34,182 nucleotides of DNA. Source: Nitrospirota bacterium (lineage in GTDB: Bacteria > Nitrospinota > Nitrospinia > SZUA-224). A model generated the notes under the pieces. It saw nothing but the letters and a program-made list of their open reading frames with translations. It did not search any database and was not told the DNA's origin. Location of the stretch: the NCBI GenBank assembly GCA_003229375.1, contig QIDP01000066.1:1-34182 (forward strand). The letters run 5' to 3'. Both the position numbers and the translations under genes were made by a program. Shown piece after piece: positions 4,042 through 26,362 of the stretch; positions within the stretch are counted from its first letter, which is position 1, and the number at the start of each line of letters is the position of its first letter.

Positions 4042-4191
4042 GTAACTACTCAGGTGGATAGTCTGTAGGTGTTTAGCTGAATAGTGAGGAAGAAATATGC
4101 GAGATAATACAAAGCTCAGAGCGGTTGGGAGCCTTGATTCGTTCTTTGCGCAGTCCTAACAGACTACAGTCTAAACAACCTGAGTAGTTAC
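4042..4191 (+). mobile_element. Inverted-repeat element, deletion derivative of a four-helix-bundle gene (copy 1)
   Basis: A 150-bp element between cas1 and cas2 with perfect 14-bp terminal inverted repeats (GTAACTACTCAGGT at 4042-4055, complement at 4178-4191). The second copy is at 13204-13380 on the other strand; about 65 bases at one end and 58 at the other are nearly identical, the middles differ. A GAGGAAG ribosome site precedes ATG 4097, which opens MRDNTKLRA, the usual start of one class of four-helix-bundle proteins. It then runs into the wrong frame and stops at 4157. A second frame gives the family's C-terminus, LIRSLRSPNRLQSKQPE, whose TAG stop (4185-4187) lies inside the terminal repeat. 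So the start and end of a gene survive with the centre deleted. No clear target duplication is visible. Confidence 0.85.
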
Positions 4192-4695: not shown

Positions 4696-4878
4696 CCATG
4701 ATGCGAACCAGAAGTTCACACATTTTTACGACAGGGTTCGCATTATGCAAAAAAATGTTTAAAATGTATGAATTAGAAGCATTGCTCTTTGACAACCGAA
4801 AATTTATTGCCTTTAAAATTGGTGGGTCGCAAAAAGCGGTTAATTACCATTTTAAAAACAATAAGTTATAAGTAAACA
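4696..4878 (+). promoter_or_regulatory. CRISPR leader
   Basis: An AT-rich, gene-free stretch directly upstream of the first repeat and downstream of cas2. It holds an inverted repeat ATGCGAACC (4701-4709) / GGTTCGCAT (4735-4743) flanking an AT-rich loop. From memory, a GCGAACC...GGTTCGC pair is a recurring feature of type I-C leaders. The perfect repeats and the decayed repeat at the far end place the leader on this side, so new spacers should enter at 4878/4879. The insertion element stops before this inverted repeat, so the leader appears intact. The array promoter must lie here, but I see no clear -35/-10 pair. Confidence 0.75.
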
Positions 4879-6569
4879 GTCGCCCCCCATGCGGGGGCGT
4901 GGATTGAAACGAGGCACAAACGCTAGCTCCACTATATAAACAGCGTCGCCCCCCATGCGGGGGCGTGGATTGAAACTATCTATCTTGCAGGCGCAGACCC
5001 TTACAGGGATGAGTCGCCCCCCATGCGGGGGCGTGGATTGAAACTAATCATTGATTTAAGAGCAGCAGATACCGCAGGTCGCCCCCCATGCGGGGGCGTG
5101 GATTGAAACAATTAGCTGTCTATATAGCGGAGCTAATGTTTGAGGTCGCCCCCCATGCGGGGGCGTGGATTGAAACATCTCTACCGTGTGTAAATCCATA
5201 ATCCCCCCAAGTCGCCCCCCATGCGGGGGCGTGGATTGAAACAGATCTGGTGGAACTCTAACTATACAAATCAAAGTCGCCCCCCATGCGGGGGCGTGGA
5301 TTGAAACACCACCTGATATACTACCGCTTATCGCTCCTAAAGTCGCCCCCCATGCGGGGGCGTGGATTGAAACCTAATATAATCTATATCATACGATGTT
5401 AGATAAGGTCGCCCCCCATGCGGGGGCGTGGATTGAAACTAAAATATAGCATTTAGGCAACAAAAAAATTGCTGTCGCCCCCCATGCGGGGGCGTGGATT
5501 GAAACGCTATATTCATCGGTGACGAAATATCTCTTACCAAGTCGCCCCCCATGCGGGGGCGTGGATTGAAACTTAAAAGTAATTGAATCGTTTTGAGACG
5601 AATTAAGTCGCCCCCCATGCGGGGGCGTGGATTGAAACAAGTTGTGGCACTCTATTTATTACAGCTTGAGAGTCGCCCCCCATGCGGGGGCGTGGATTGA
5701 AACAACCAAAATTTGGCGGTTATCATCAATATGCTCAGTCGCCCCCCATGCGCGGGGGCGTGGATTGAAACAAGGTAAAGGAGATGGCAGATCCCCTCCT
5801 CACAGGTCGCCCCCCATGCGGGGGCGTGGATTGAAACAATAAAAAAAGTAGGAATTAAACCTACTATTGCGGTCGCCCCCCATGCGGGGGCGTGGATTGA
5901 AACTGAAATATCACCATAAGCTCCCGCAGTAATCCTTGTCGCCCCCCATGCGGGGGCGTGGATTGAAACTGAAATAATAGACTGTTTGGATATTTATGAT
6001 AAGTCGCCCCCCATGCGGGGGCGTGGATTGAAACATTTAGGAGCGGTTTATGATGGTAAGAATATAAAGGTCGCCCCCCATGCGGGGGCGTGGATTGAAA
6101 CTCGCTAAAGATGTGACCATCAATGATAGAGACGGGTCGCCCCCCATGCGGGGGCGTGGATTGAAACTTAAAATTAAGAGAACCTTATTAAATAAAGTAT
6201 GGTGTCGCCCCCCATGCGGGGGCGTGGATTGAAACGATGTAGCAAATAAAAAGAAAGAGCTTAACTATAGGTCGCCCCCCATGCGGGGGCGTGGATTGAA
6301 ACATCCTATATCAAAGCCTCTTATGAGTGGAAGACGGTCGCCCCCCATGCGGGGGCGTGGATTGAAACATCTCGTGGCGGGAGACAGACTACTACCACTA
6401 AAGTCGCCCCCCATGCGGGGGCGTGGATTGAAACTTGCATTATAGACAGACTCTATCTGTCCTCGGCTGTCGCCCCCCATGCGGGGGCGTGGATTGAAAC
6501 AACTGGGCCTCCACCCAAACATACTACAACACAAAGTCGCCCCTCACGCCAGTTCGGATATAATTAAAC
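4879..6569 (+). CRISPR. Type I-C CRISPR array, 25 full repeats plus a decayed terminal repeat
   Basis: The repeat is 32 bp, starting GTCGCCCCCC and ending GTGGATTGAAAC, the normal I-C pattern of a C-run/G-run stem and an ATTGAAAC tail (the crRNA 5' handle comes from that tail). Repeats start at 4879, 4945, 5013, 5078, 5145, 5211, 5276, 5342, 5408, 5474, 5541, 5607, 5672, 5738, 5806, 5872, 5938, 6003, 6070, 6136, 6204, 6271, 6337, 6403 and 6469. All are identical by eye except number 14. A degraded repeat starts at 6536 (GTCGCCCCTCACG, ending near 6569) and marks the old end. The 25 spacers are 33-36 bp. Spacer 1 (4911-4944) and spacer 4 (5110-5144) are related in reverse complement. Confidence 0.98.
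5738..5771 (+). repeat. Variant CRISPR repeat 14 with a 2-bp insertion
   Basis: This repeat is 34 bp: it reads CCATGCGCGGGGGCG where the others read CCATGCGGGGGCG, an extra CG in the hairpin loop side. The tail ATTGAAAC is unchanged, so the mature crRNA handle would be the same, but the stem-loop recognised by the I-C processing nuclease is altered. It is the only full-length repeat that differs. Confidence 0.95.
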
Positions 6570-22467: not shown

Positions 22468-23412
22468 ATGAAAAGGAAATATTATACAATAATGGTATTT
22501 CCTGATATGATTGGCAAACCTCGTAAAATCATCTTATCGAAATTTTTAGTACAGACATTCACAACTCTTTTCAGCTTCTTTATAGTCTGTTTTATTGTTG
22601 CCTCTATCGTCTTTACCCATCGTTATATAGAGATGAGTAAAGATGCGGTGGATGTAGAATTGCTTCGTAAGGAGGCAAGTGTTCAGAAGGCACAGATAGA
22701 GAAATTTACCCGGAGACTCAAGGACTTTGAGGTTCAGATGGTGAGACTTGAGAGATTCGATAAGAAGTTGCGGATTATAACTTCATTAGAGGACTCTGAA
22801 AACTCTTTTCACAAGGCATGGGGTGTTGGCGGGGCAGATAAAGAGATATCTAACGGGTTTTATTCTCCTTCAAAGGATTTTGATAATAATGTTATAAAGG
22901 GGCTGTATGAAGATCTGAGACATTTCAAACTTCAGGCCGAACTACAGGAGATAAGCTTCCAGGAATTGGATGATTTCTTCAAGGATCAGACATCACTACT
23001 TTCGGCTACTCCATCTATATGGCCGACAAAGGGATGGGTTACCTCAAGGTTTGGCTACCGGAAGTCACCATTTACAGGTTTAAGGGAGATGCACAAAGGG
23101 ATGGATATTGCCACGAGGATCAATTCTCCTGTCACTTCTCCTGCTGATGGGGTTGTGATTCGTACAGGGATGGATTACGGATTCGGGAATGTATTGGTGA
23201 TCGATCATGGATACGGTATTGTTACCAGATATGGCCATAATTCGAAGAACTTAATAAAGGTTGGTGATAGGATAAAGAGGGGCCAGCTTATAGCTTTAGT
23301 GGGGAATACCGGACGTAGTACAGGTTCTCATCTCCACTATGAGGTCATTGTAAATGGTGTTCAGGTAGATCCATTAAGATATATTATGGATAATAATTTA
23401 GATTATTATTAG
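22468..23412 (+). CDS. M23-family (LytM-like) peptidoglycan endopeptidase
   Basis: A 314-residue protein with one N-terminal membrane segment (about 27-50, FTTLFSFFIVCFIVASIVF), a coiled-coil stretch (about 60-100, VELLRKEASVQKAQIEKF), and a C-terminal M23 domain (about 195-310). The zinc ligands are in MHKGMDIA (H and D) and GSHLHYEV (the HxH), with the supporting histidine in TRYGHNS. It is thus catalytically complete, not an EnvC/NlpD-like dead copy. It likely trims peptidoglycan in the periplasm or acts in outgrowth. It has its own promoter and an intrinsic terminator, so it is a single-gene unit. Confidence 0.93.
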   Translation: MKRKYYTIMVFPDMIGKPRKIILSKFLVQTFTTLFSFFIVCFIVASIVFTHRYIEMSKDAVDVELLRKEASVQKAQIEKFTRRLKDFEVQMVRLERFDKKLRIITSLEDSENSFHKAWGVGGADKEISNGFYSPSKDFDNNVIKGLYEDLRHFKLQAELQEISFQELDDFFKDQTSLLSATPSIWPTKGWVTSRFGYRKSPFTGLREMHKGMDIATRINSPVTSPADGVVIRTGMDYGFGNVLVIDHGYGIVTRYGHNSKNLIKVGDRIKRGQLIALVGNTGRSTGSHLHYEVIVNGVQVDPLRYIMDNNLDYY

Positions 23413-23447
23413 AGTCCTTTAGTTTTAATTATCATTATTTTTGAGAG

Positions 23448-23483
23448 CCCTGATAGAGGTTATTACCTCTTCAGGGTTTTTTT
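23448..23483 (+). terminator. Intrinsic terminator after the M23 gene
   Basis: CCCTGA-T-AGAGGT (23448-23460), TATT loop, ACCTCT-TCAGGG (23465-23476), then seven T. Two 6-bp stems with one bulged T. Confidence 0.92.
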
Positions 23484-23518
23484 GTTTTAAGACATTTTAT
23501 GTTATGATAATGGTAACA

Positions 23519-23729
23519 GTTCACAGTTCACGGTTTACAGTTCACAGTTGATGAAAACAGAAAGTAAAAGGAAGTTATGAGCGCTTCTTTTGAAAATTTA
23601 GAAGTCTGGAAAAATCTTCTGAAATAGACTCAAAAAGGTAATTAACGAATTGAAATCAATATCAAAAATGCTATAAGGGCTACATGATTCATTGAAAAAA
23701 CTGTAAACTGTAAACCGTGAACTGTGAAC
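23519..23729 (+). mobile_element. Inverted-repeat element containing a wrecked four-helix-bundle gene, upstream of secA
   Basis: Terminal repeats of 31 bp (23519-23549 and 23699-23729) match with a single mismatch; they are made of GTTCACAGTTCACGG-type tandem units. Inside, GGAAGTT precedes ATG 23577, which reads MSASFENLEVWKNLLK and stops at 23625. ENLEVWKN is the usual start of a four-helix-bundle protein. Near the right end LKSISKML-stop-GLHDSLKKL (from 23650) is the family's usual C-terminus with one nonsense codon; its TAA (23704-23706) lies in the terminal repeat. So most of the gene has been deleted. The element lies between the M23 terminator and secA and probably contains or displaces part of the secA promoter region. 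Confidence 0.85.
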
Positions 23730-23773
23730 GGATATAAATAATGTTGGGGGTAACTTTTATAAGGGACATAAAA

Positions 23774-26362
23774 ATGATAGGCCAATTTATAAAAAAGATA
23801 GTGGGGAGTAAGAATGACAGGGAGCTAAAAAGGCTGCAGGTTTATGTGGAGAAGATAAATCAGCTTGAACATAGAATCAAAGGGCTCTCTGATCAGGAGT
23901 TAAAGGCAAAGACACCAGAATTTAAAGAGATTCTTGATAGGGGCGCTGCCATAGAGGATGTCCTTTGCGAGGCATTTGCTGTTGTCCGCGAAGTGGCCAG
24001 GAGGACACTGGATATGCGTCATTTCGATGTCCAGTTGATGGGAGGGGTGGTTCTTCATGAGGGTAAAATCGCTGAGATGTCAACCGGTGAAGGCAAGACT
24101 CTAGTTGCTACTCTGCCTGTGTATCTGAATAGCCTGACTGAAAAAGGTGTACATGTAGTGACGGTTAACGATTATCTTGCCAGCAGAGACAGCGAATGGA
24201 TGGGGAAGATATATAGATTCTTAGGTCTGACAGTAGGGATAATACAACATAGTATGGGTGATATTGAGAGACAGGAGGCTTACAGGGCTGATGTTACATA
24301 TGGTACTAATAATGAGTTTGGTTTTGATTATCTTAGAGATAACATGAAGTTTTCCATTGAGAATTACGTACAGAAGGAGTTGAACTATGCCATAGTTGAT
24401 GAGGTAGATAGTATTCTGATTGATGAGGCACGTACACCTCTGATAATTTCTGGTCCCTCTGAGGAATCAACAGATAAGTATTATAAAATAAATAGAATAA
24501 TTCCCGGCCTGAAAAAGGATAAGGACTATCAACTCGAAGAGAAGACAAGAACCGTGGCATTGACTGAAGAGGGAGTCGCCCACGTAGAGAAACTCCTGTC
24601 AACAGATAATCTTTATGATCCTTCCAATATGGAGATACTCCACCATGTAAATCAGGCATTAAAGGCCCGTGCTCTCTTTAAAAGGGATGTGGACTATGTT
24701 GTAAAGGACGGTGAGGTAATCATAGTTGATGAATTTACAGGAAGGATGATGCCTGGCAGGAGATATAGTGAGGGGCTCCATCAGGCCTTAGAGGCAAAAG
24801 AGAGTGTAAATATAGAGAGCGAAAACCAGACACTCGCCTCTATCACCTTTCAAAATTATTTCAGACTATATAATAAGCTTGCAGGGATGACAGGTACAGC
24901 AGATACCGAGGCAGCAGAATTTAACAATATATATAAACTTGAGGTTGTTGTGATACCTCCAAATAGACCACTGATCCGGAATTCATATCCGGACGTGATA
25001 TACAGAACAGAAAGAGAAAAATTTAATGCTGTTGTTAATGAGATCGAGGGGTTGCACAAAAATGGACGTCCTGTCCTGGTAGGGACAATATCTATAGAGA
25101 ATTCTGAAAAGTTGGGCAGGATGTTAAAGAAGAAGGGTATAAGGCATCACGTGCTGAATGCCAAATACCATGAGAAAGAAGCAGATATCATTGCAGATGC
25201 CGGTCAGAGACTATCGGTTACCATAGCTACAAACATGGCTGGAAGAGGGACAGATATTGTCCTGGGACAAGGGATAGCAAAGATAGGAGGATTACATATT
25301 CTAGGGACAGAGAGACATGAAAGCAGAAGAATAGATAATCAGTTAAGGGGAAGATCCGGAAGACAGGGAGATCCTGGTTCTTCTCGTTTCTATCTTTCAT
25401 TAGAGGATGATCTCTTGAGGATATTCGGATCGGATCGGATATCAGGGATAATGGAGAGATTGGGTATGAATGATGGACAGCCGATAGAGCATAAGATGAT
25501 CACAAAGGCTATTGAGAATGCCCAGCGTAAGGTTGAGGGACATAATTTCGATATAAGGAAACACCTCCTGGAATATGATGATGTGATGAATAAACAGCGG
25601 GAGGTCATCTATGAGCAGAGAAGGCAGGTTCTGGAAGGTGAGAATCTTAAGGAGAGTATCTTTGAAATGATAGCAGATGTGTTAGATAATATTGTCTCTC
25701 TCTATACAAGTGAGGATACCTATCCTGAGGAGTGGGATCTGGAGGGATTGAAGGATGGATTGAGCAGGCAGTTCTCCATGAATATTACCCTTGATACTAT
25801 TGACGAATCAAGAGAGTTACGGATAGCCGGCAAAGAAGAGCTAAAAATTACTGATACGGATCAGGCAAAACTTAGGGAGATATTATTAGATGCAGTCTAT
25901 ACAAATTATGACAAAAAAGAGCAGGAGTTGGGAAGTGAGATGATGCGGTATCTGGAGAAGATGGTAATGCTTCAGATTATTGATAATCTCTGGAAGGATC
26001 ATCTTCTTGCAATGGATCACCTAAAAGAGGGAATAGGACTGCGTGGTTATGCCCAGAAGAACCCCCTTAATGAGTATAAGAGAGAGGGGTATGAGATGTT
26101 CATGGATATGATACGGCGTATAAGGGAGGAGATAACCGGGTATATCTTTAAGCTTCAGATTACAAGTGAAAGAGAAGATGGGTTTACCAGGATACATAGA
26201 AGACAAAGGGTTATGGAACATAGGGGGGAGCTTTCTCAGTCGAGGGGAGGAGGTAAAACCGCAACAGTAACAACAGTAAAGAGAAAAGAGAAGAAGATAG
26301 GGAGAAATGAACCATGCCTCTGTGGAAGCGGAAAAAAGCATAAAAAGTGTTGTGGACAATAA
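23774..26362 (+). CDS. secA: SecA preprotein translocase ATPase
   Basis: Motor ATPase driving proteins through SecYEG. Motifs: [20 protein letters not shown] (Walker A, nucleotide-binding domain 1), [32 protein letters not shown] (DEVD Walker B), [24 protein letters not shown] (preprotein cross-linking region), [14 protein letters not shown] and [33 protein letters not shown] (NBD2), [34 protein letters not shown] (helical scaffold), and a C-terminal SEC-C zinc tail [17 protein letters not shown] start at ATG 23774 (AAGGGA upstream), giving 862 residues; an upstream ATG 23741 adds 11 residues without a good ribosome site. Complete and surely functional. Confidence 0.98.

Follow-up and report, generated by a model that had tools for sequence, protein, structure and literature searches.

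Among the described systems closest to the locus studied here is the 23S rRNA IVS of Coxiella burnetii, which is 428 nt long, has a 28-bp stem, carries an S23p ORF and involves RNase III, and whose functionality and origin are stated to be unclear in that study (PMC4990558). Proteins of the S23p/IVP family (PF05635) are common 'hypothetical' genes that have been known from 23S rRNA IVS for decades without a function. A separate body of work concerns heptanucleotide intergenic repeats, which have been described as TAACTGA in Beggiatoaceae (PMC4679880) and as a GGGACCG type in Geobacter metallireducens (PMC2700814). Such heptameric repeats are widespread and unexplained, and here they become tied to the IVP protein by a rule that links protein lineage and heptad sequence.

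We examined a stretch of 34,182 nucleotides (the window), which harbors at positions 23513-23735 a 223-bp element running from GTAAC at 23513 to GGATAT at 23735, with boundaries defined by comparison with other copies. Inverted-repeat analysis pairs two arms of 31 nt (23519-23549 and 23699-23729) that are 97% complementary, with one mismatch. The left end (23513-23549, forward strand) consists of the GTAAC tip and a 5' heptad array that follows a direct 7-nt register (ACAGTTC ACAGTTC ACGGTTT ACAGTTC ACAGTT), and the right end (23699-23735, forward strand), delimited by the inverted repeat and by comparison of copies, consists of the 3' heptad array and a tip that reads GGATAT in this copy and GTTAC or GATAC in others. 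Comparison of the flanks of different copies identified the adjoining 8-mers TGATAATG (23505-23512) and AAATAATG (23736-23743) as an 8-bp target duplication, matching at 6 of 8 positions and thus carrying two differences, while other copies of the family match at 8/8. What the element retains of a PF05635/TIGR02436 gene is its first 13 codons and roughly its last 30. The start remnant, MSASFENLEVWKN (23577-23612, forward strand; codons ATG AGC GCT TCT TTT GAA AAT TTA GAA GTC TGG AAA AAT), was delimited by aligning it with two intact genes, G003:C208 and G003:C8, and its reading frame continues past the deletion junction to a TAG at 23625-23627. The end remnant (23613-23706, forward strand) was delimited by alignment to the same intact genes and to a less deleted copy in the source genome (C93:3149-3398); it comprises SEIDSKKVINELKSISKML, an internal stop, and GLHDSLKKL followed by a second stop, so that the translation before the internal stop ends in INELKSISKML, and its last codons lie inside the 3' arm. 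In the alignment, the corresponding intact relative, G003:C208, reads MSASFENLEVWKKSCRL...NELKSISKMLQALHDSLKKP.

The upstream neighbor, taken from the ORF list, is a peptidase-like ORF (22468-23412, forward strand), which is followed in the sequence by an intrinsic-terminator-like hairpin at about 23443-23483, and the downstream neighbor is secA (23774-26362, forward strand), whose start ATG at 23774 was set by alignment with relatives. The element sits about 100 nt past the upstream stop, behind the terminator-like hairpin, and not tightly at a stop-start gap. Its predicted RNA fold has an energy of -69.3 kcal/mol (z = -8.9), which no shuffled sequence equaled, and a search of the window against Rfam gave no match, that is, no known structured RNA. 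We also considered base-by-base compensation between the arms of this family, but the heptads are imperfectly matched by eye (TTCAC opposite TTATC), and no covariation is claimed.

A 251-bp query matched 123 pieces in the source genome, representing about 40 elements, and a 19-bp end pattern with at most 3 mismatches gave 151 matches, versus 2 for the reversed control, so that the repeat is well above chance expectation. Most of these copies have been cut to roughly 80-140 bp, and a few are longer and retain more of the gene. In 12 of 29 copies the flanking 8-mers agree at 6 or more of 8 positions, versus 4.3% of mismatched pairs. Ends of the same type surround intact genes at G003:C208:11628-12072 and G003:C8:4115-4526, so that G003, which belongs to the same class but to a different family, holds the intact parent type; the G003:C208 protein scores 117 bits against TIGR02436 (cut-off 24) and 120 bits against PF05635 (cut-off 33.8). 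Both the inverted repeat and the gutted four-helix-bundle gene that a sequence-only reading of this DNA had proposed are thus borne out. No intact gene of the window family was found in the assembly of the source genome despite its roughly 40 copies, and present activity there is therefore doubtful. With its terminal inverted repeats, 8-bp target duplication, multiple copies and internal deletion from a longer parent, the window copy taken alone is an ordinary degraded MITE; the interesting part is the general rule to which it belongs.

A second MITE family, with GTAACTACTCAGGT ends, occurs in the window at 4042-4191 and from 13204 onward, and ends of this type have 151 matches in the source genome. 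In 11 copies for which both ends could be read, flank identity is 0.76 at length 8 (null 0.36) and near background at all other lengths, indicating an exact 8-bp duplication. In another genome, GTAACTACTCAGGT-type ends enclose an intact IVP gene (G007:C416; L124:339-786), with the 8-bp duplication CAAATTTT/CATATTTT alongside. The statement in the sequence-only reading that the ends of the window element share nothing with GTAACTACTCAGGT stands only in part: both families start with GTAAC and both give 8-bp duplications. These duplications indicate a DNA-level, cut-and-paste-like insertion for the two GTAAC families, whose copies in the source genome show a mild sense bias only (15:5). At two loci of the source genome, C88 (L016) and C7 (L021), GTAACTACTCAGGT elements are nested inside window-family copies at one common internal point, between CTACATGATTC and GTAACTAC, and may have spread together afterwards.

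As the earlier reading had proposed scoring inverted repeats at both sides of such genes against random genes, and had named a lack of enrichment as the outcome that would speak against it, we analyzed the source genome and 13 relatives, taking PF05635 matches over the curated cut-off and counting a gene as flanked when its best cross-gene inverted repeat scored at least 14. Enrichment was found: inverted repeats flank 87% of 63 PF05635 genes; for 438 other ORFs from these contigs the share is 3.9%, and for 1890 random windows it is 0.7%. A second, independent set came from a GTDB-wide scan, which yielded 80 relatives spread over more than 20 phyla. Of the 78 that could be scored, 72% were flanked, versus 0/217 random windows; this set was collected with a closer alignment as the query and is biased to one large IVP branch.

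A complete unit has the form of a 5' heptad array, an IVP gene and a complementary 3' heptad array, and spans about 430 bp; the median arm is 30 nt long, which fits four to five heptads. Over 110 arms, self-identity at offsets 7, 14 and 21 is 0.61, 0.60 and 0.57, respectively, versus 0.31 after shuffling, and the best period is 7 in 76 arms and 8 in 26. The 5' arms have the weak consensus NNAGKNA, the spacing between AG dinucleotides peaks at 7, 14 and 21, and AG outnumbers CT in 95 arms versus 6; because the arms are inverted repeats, this polarity is identical on both strands. Arms are unrelated when the proteins are less than about 50-60% identical and are shared above 60-70%. In most of 10 pairs the arms agree better than third codon positions (for example, 0.91 versus 0.47 and 0.84 versus 0.36; the best overlap of random arm pairs is 0.45, with a 95th percentile of 0.65), which argues that the end sequence matters within a protein lineage. 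End sequences thus differ between IVP lineages and are retained within a lineage. This agrees with the earlier suggestion that sequence-unrelated ends accompany one protein family, but does not support, as worded, its corollary that no particular terminal sequence defines the unit, since the ends have a 7-nt period, AG in phase, and letters that are kept within a protein lineage.

Several individual arrangements of ends were also recorded. Four species of Rhizobium and Rhizobiales (L277, L280, L282 and L288), all culturable hosts with proteins 89-93% identical, have the common end heptad AGGCAAT. At G000:C120 (L154, 1400-2050), an intact IVP gene with GGGTCTA ends is followed by a gutted copy (ATGAAGTTTAGTTTTGAGGAATTGGAT...) and by more GGGTCTA units, in a tandem or nested arrangement. 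Gene-less hairpins of the CACAGAGGCACAGAGA type, which have an 8-nt period, recur at gene gaps in several genomes (for example, G015 L312:2890-3022 and G019 L379:15917-16084), and IVP genes that are intact lie between similar ends, GGCACAGAGG/GGCACAAAGG, in L229 (a Nitrospirae genome) and at G007:C316.

The median distance between the upstream stop codon and the beginning of the 5' arm is 2 nt (quartiles -7 to 11), and that between the end of the 3' arm and the next start is 14 nt. Of the units between co-directional genes 97 are in sense and 7 in antisense orientation, the class set alone giving 46:1. Moreover, the same gaps are filled differently among relatives (gene names at the compared gaps are our reading of the flanking sequence). 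At the presumed xerC-hslV gap, G019 and G011 have IVP units whose ends differ, G013 and G015 have heptad hairpins that lack a gene, and G017 has just 8 bp. At the presumed cusB-cusA gap, G013 and G019 each have an IVP unit, but not the same one, and G017 has a gene-less hairpin. The leader of what we take to be secA contains the window element in the source genome; in G001 it contains a gutted version of the unit that is intact at G001:C145, and in G002 it has neither of them, so that intact and gutted copies of one family coexist within the single genome G001. Seven IVP-bearing relatives yielded 25 periodic hairpins over 488 kb, some stretches of which were picked via hairpin hits, versus 0 over 400 kb from three IVP-less relatives, and the same detector found none in an unbiased 140-kb sample of the source genome. 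Among intergenic periodic hairpins with both neighbors seen, 16/17 lie between co-directional genes. For heptad units outside the GTAAC families no target duplication was detectable in 16-nt or 37-nt flanks, and these units may therefore use another route than the GTAAC families. At G007:C90 (L110, about 4830-5330), the end of the upstream gene recurs as a long direct copy flanking an IVP unit (CGGAGCTTGGATAAAGAGGCGTGG / CGGAGTTTGGATAAGGAGGCGTAG), which may represent a long target duplication.

The solved relatives of the IVP protein, 2gsc and 2rld, have five chains. Alignment of the family reveals six near-invariant polar residues (Q42, R45, S49, N53, E56 and E79), which suggests that they mark a putative functional site. 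A distant relative of the four-helix family, a TIGR04258 suffix domain, is encoded in the window at 1584-2153 between cas genes; this gene adjoins a CRISPR region that is type I-C-like and includes several repeat arrays (about 5050-6540).

The units have a mobile architecture, lineage-specific heptads and a sense placement at stop-start gaps. The window feature itself is probably a non-autonomous copy with an internal deletion, derived from a minimal mobile element that has S23p/IVP (PF05635, TIGR02436) as its sole gene and whose mobility, we propose, is directed by the IVP. According to this proposal, the arms would pair in the transcript as they do in the 23S rRNA IVS, and the paired insert would fold out of the RNA or be cleaved by RNase III, leaving the neighboring ORFs unharmed; such a harmless insert would account for both the tolerated sites and the sense bias. 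A pentameric IVP might recognize its own heptads, with each protomer reading about one AG-heptad, and might mobilize gutted copies in trans as well as the full element. On the other hand, the sense orientation could reflect selection for translation rather than the insertion step.

IS66 elements have GTAA tips and generate 8-bp duplications. As the GTAAC-tipped families show exact 8-bp duplications, the source genome contains an IS66 DDE fragment and its assembly lacks an intact IVP gene of the window family, these families may be moved by another transposase; in the full form of this account, which we regard as unlikely but deserving of attention, the GTAAC families are mobilized in trans by a separate IS66-like DDE transposase, and the IVP gene is cargo that became enclosed by such ends. 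However, the DDE fragment amounts to a 63-residue stretch only, for which reason IS66 was rejected as the driver and retained as a rival, and we saw no IS with GTAAC-family ends. Furthermore, the IVP family bears heptad ends everywhere, without GTAAC tips or duplication, and the ends track the IVP lineage. A retro-mobility route, in which an IVP-bound hairpin RNA is reverse-transcribed by the host or by a DGR reverse transcriptase, seems to us decidedly improbable. The sense insertion in transcribed gaps would fit such a route, as would the weak matches of IVP proteins to the Avd model (24-30 bits versus a cut-off of 80) and the structural likeness between Avd (4DWL) and 2GSC described in PMC10053308, but it is difficult to reconcile with the exact 8-bp duplications of the GTAAC families, and PF00078 was absent from the source genome and from G001, G004, G009, G019, G021, G028, G037 and G039, some of which are incomplete assemblies. 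A host reverse transcriptase was accordingly rejected as a general requirement.

That the IVP is simply a host gene of ordinary operons, with the stems acting as attenuators or stability elements and nothing being mobile, would agree with the sense orientation within operons and with the stability of the stems. We consider it very unlikely, since the neighbors differ everywhere and conserved neighborhoods of one IVP lineage across genera were not seen, one and the same gap may, from relative to relative, be empty or contain unrelated units or hairpins that lack a gene, gutted forms are multicopy, and arms are shared between phyla only where the protein is shared. Least credible of all is that polymerase slippage in intergenic DNA produced the heptamer arrays and that their link to the IVP is incidental. 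In many bacterial genomes, longer repeats are reported to be most commonly heptamers, for which slippage has been invoked (work cited in PMC4679880), but slippage yields direct arrays, not complementary inverted ones on both sides of one gene family; nor would it be expected to give arms that track the protein lineage across phyla, orthologous gaps that are empty or differently filled, exact 8-bp duplications, or zero periodic hairpins in the 400 kb of IVP-less relatives.

Extending the proposal of IVP-directed mobility beyond the window, we suggest tentatively, and with somewhat less than even confidence, that PF05635 proteins are mobilizing or homing factors of unrecognized cross-phylum minimal elements with a lineage-specific heptad code (one AG-heptad per protomer) and sense stop-start insertion, and that such elements are the source of many heptameric hairpins and of 23S rRNA IVS. 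If this is true, one mechanism would explain the 23S rRNA IVS, many multicopy intergenic hairpins and the repeated remodeling of operon junctions. What is new is the sense placement at stop-start junctions and the variable filling of the same junctions among relatives. We found no description of heptad-ended IVP units between protein genes in the literature accessible to our search, outside which lay most subscription journals and all bioRxiv preprints, and the heptamer-repeat papers searched draw no link to the four-helix IVP protein.

Compared with known systems, the units resemble REP/REPIN sequences with their RAYT, which are likewise short palindromic mobile sequences outside genes that rely on a gene in trans, but the units have no Y1 gene and different ends; a PF01797 (Y1) profile search gave two matches in the source genome and none in the IVP-rich G019, whose assembly is 78% complete, which speaks against a Y1/RAYT transposase as a general requirement. 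The likeness to IS66 is confined to the GTAA tips and 8-bp duplications of the two GTAAC families of this genome; no IS66 genes lie within the unit, its ends are heptads, and other IVP units have neither GTAA tips nor the duplication. Bacterial MITEs are likewise short and non-coding, with inverted ends, an 8-bp target duplication and tens of copies, but the parent gene here encodes an IVP protein and no recognized transposase, and the ends are heptad arrays. The DGR protein Avd is a related small pentameric four-helix protein (weak NCBIfam matches; PMC10053308), whereas IVP units have no reverse transcriptase, template or variable repeat, and the source genome lacks PF00078. The heptamers of Beggiatoaceae and Geobacter are also multicopy 7-nt tandem units between genes, often just ahead of start codons, but were published as direct repeats and putative regulatory sites, with no link to a four-helix protein or a mobile unit. 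Finally, the 23S rRNA IVS, which has been published as possibly mobile (PMC4990558), shares with the heptad units a single ORF of the same family between complementary, stem-forming ends of about 30 bp, a length of about 430 nt and a sense placement in transcribed RNA, whereas the heptad units lie between protein genes and not in an rRNA gene, and have 7-nt tandem ends, many unrelated end sequences and multicopy gene-less derivatives.
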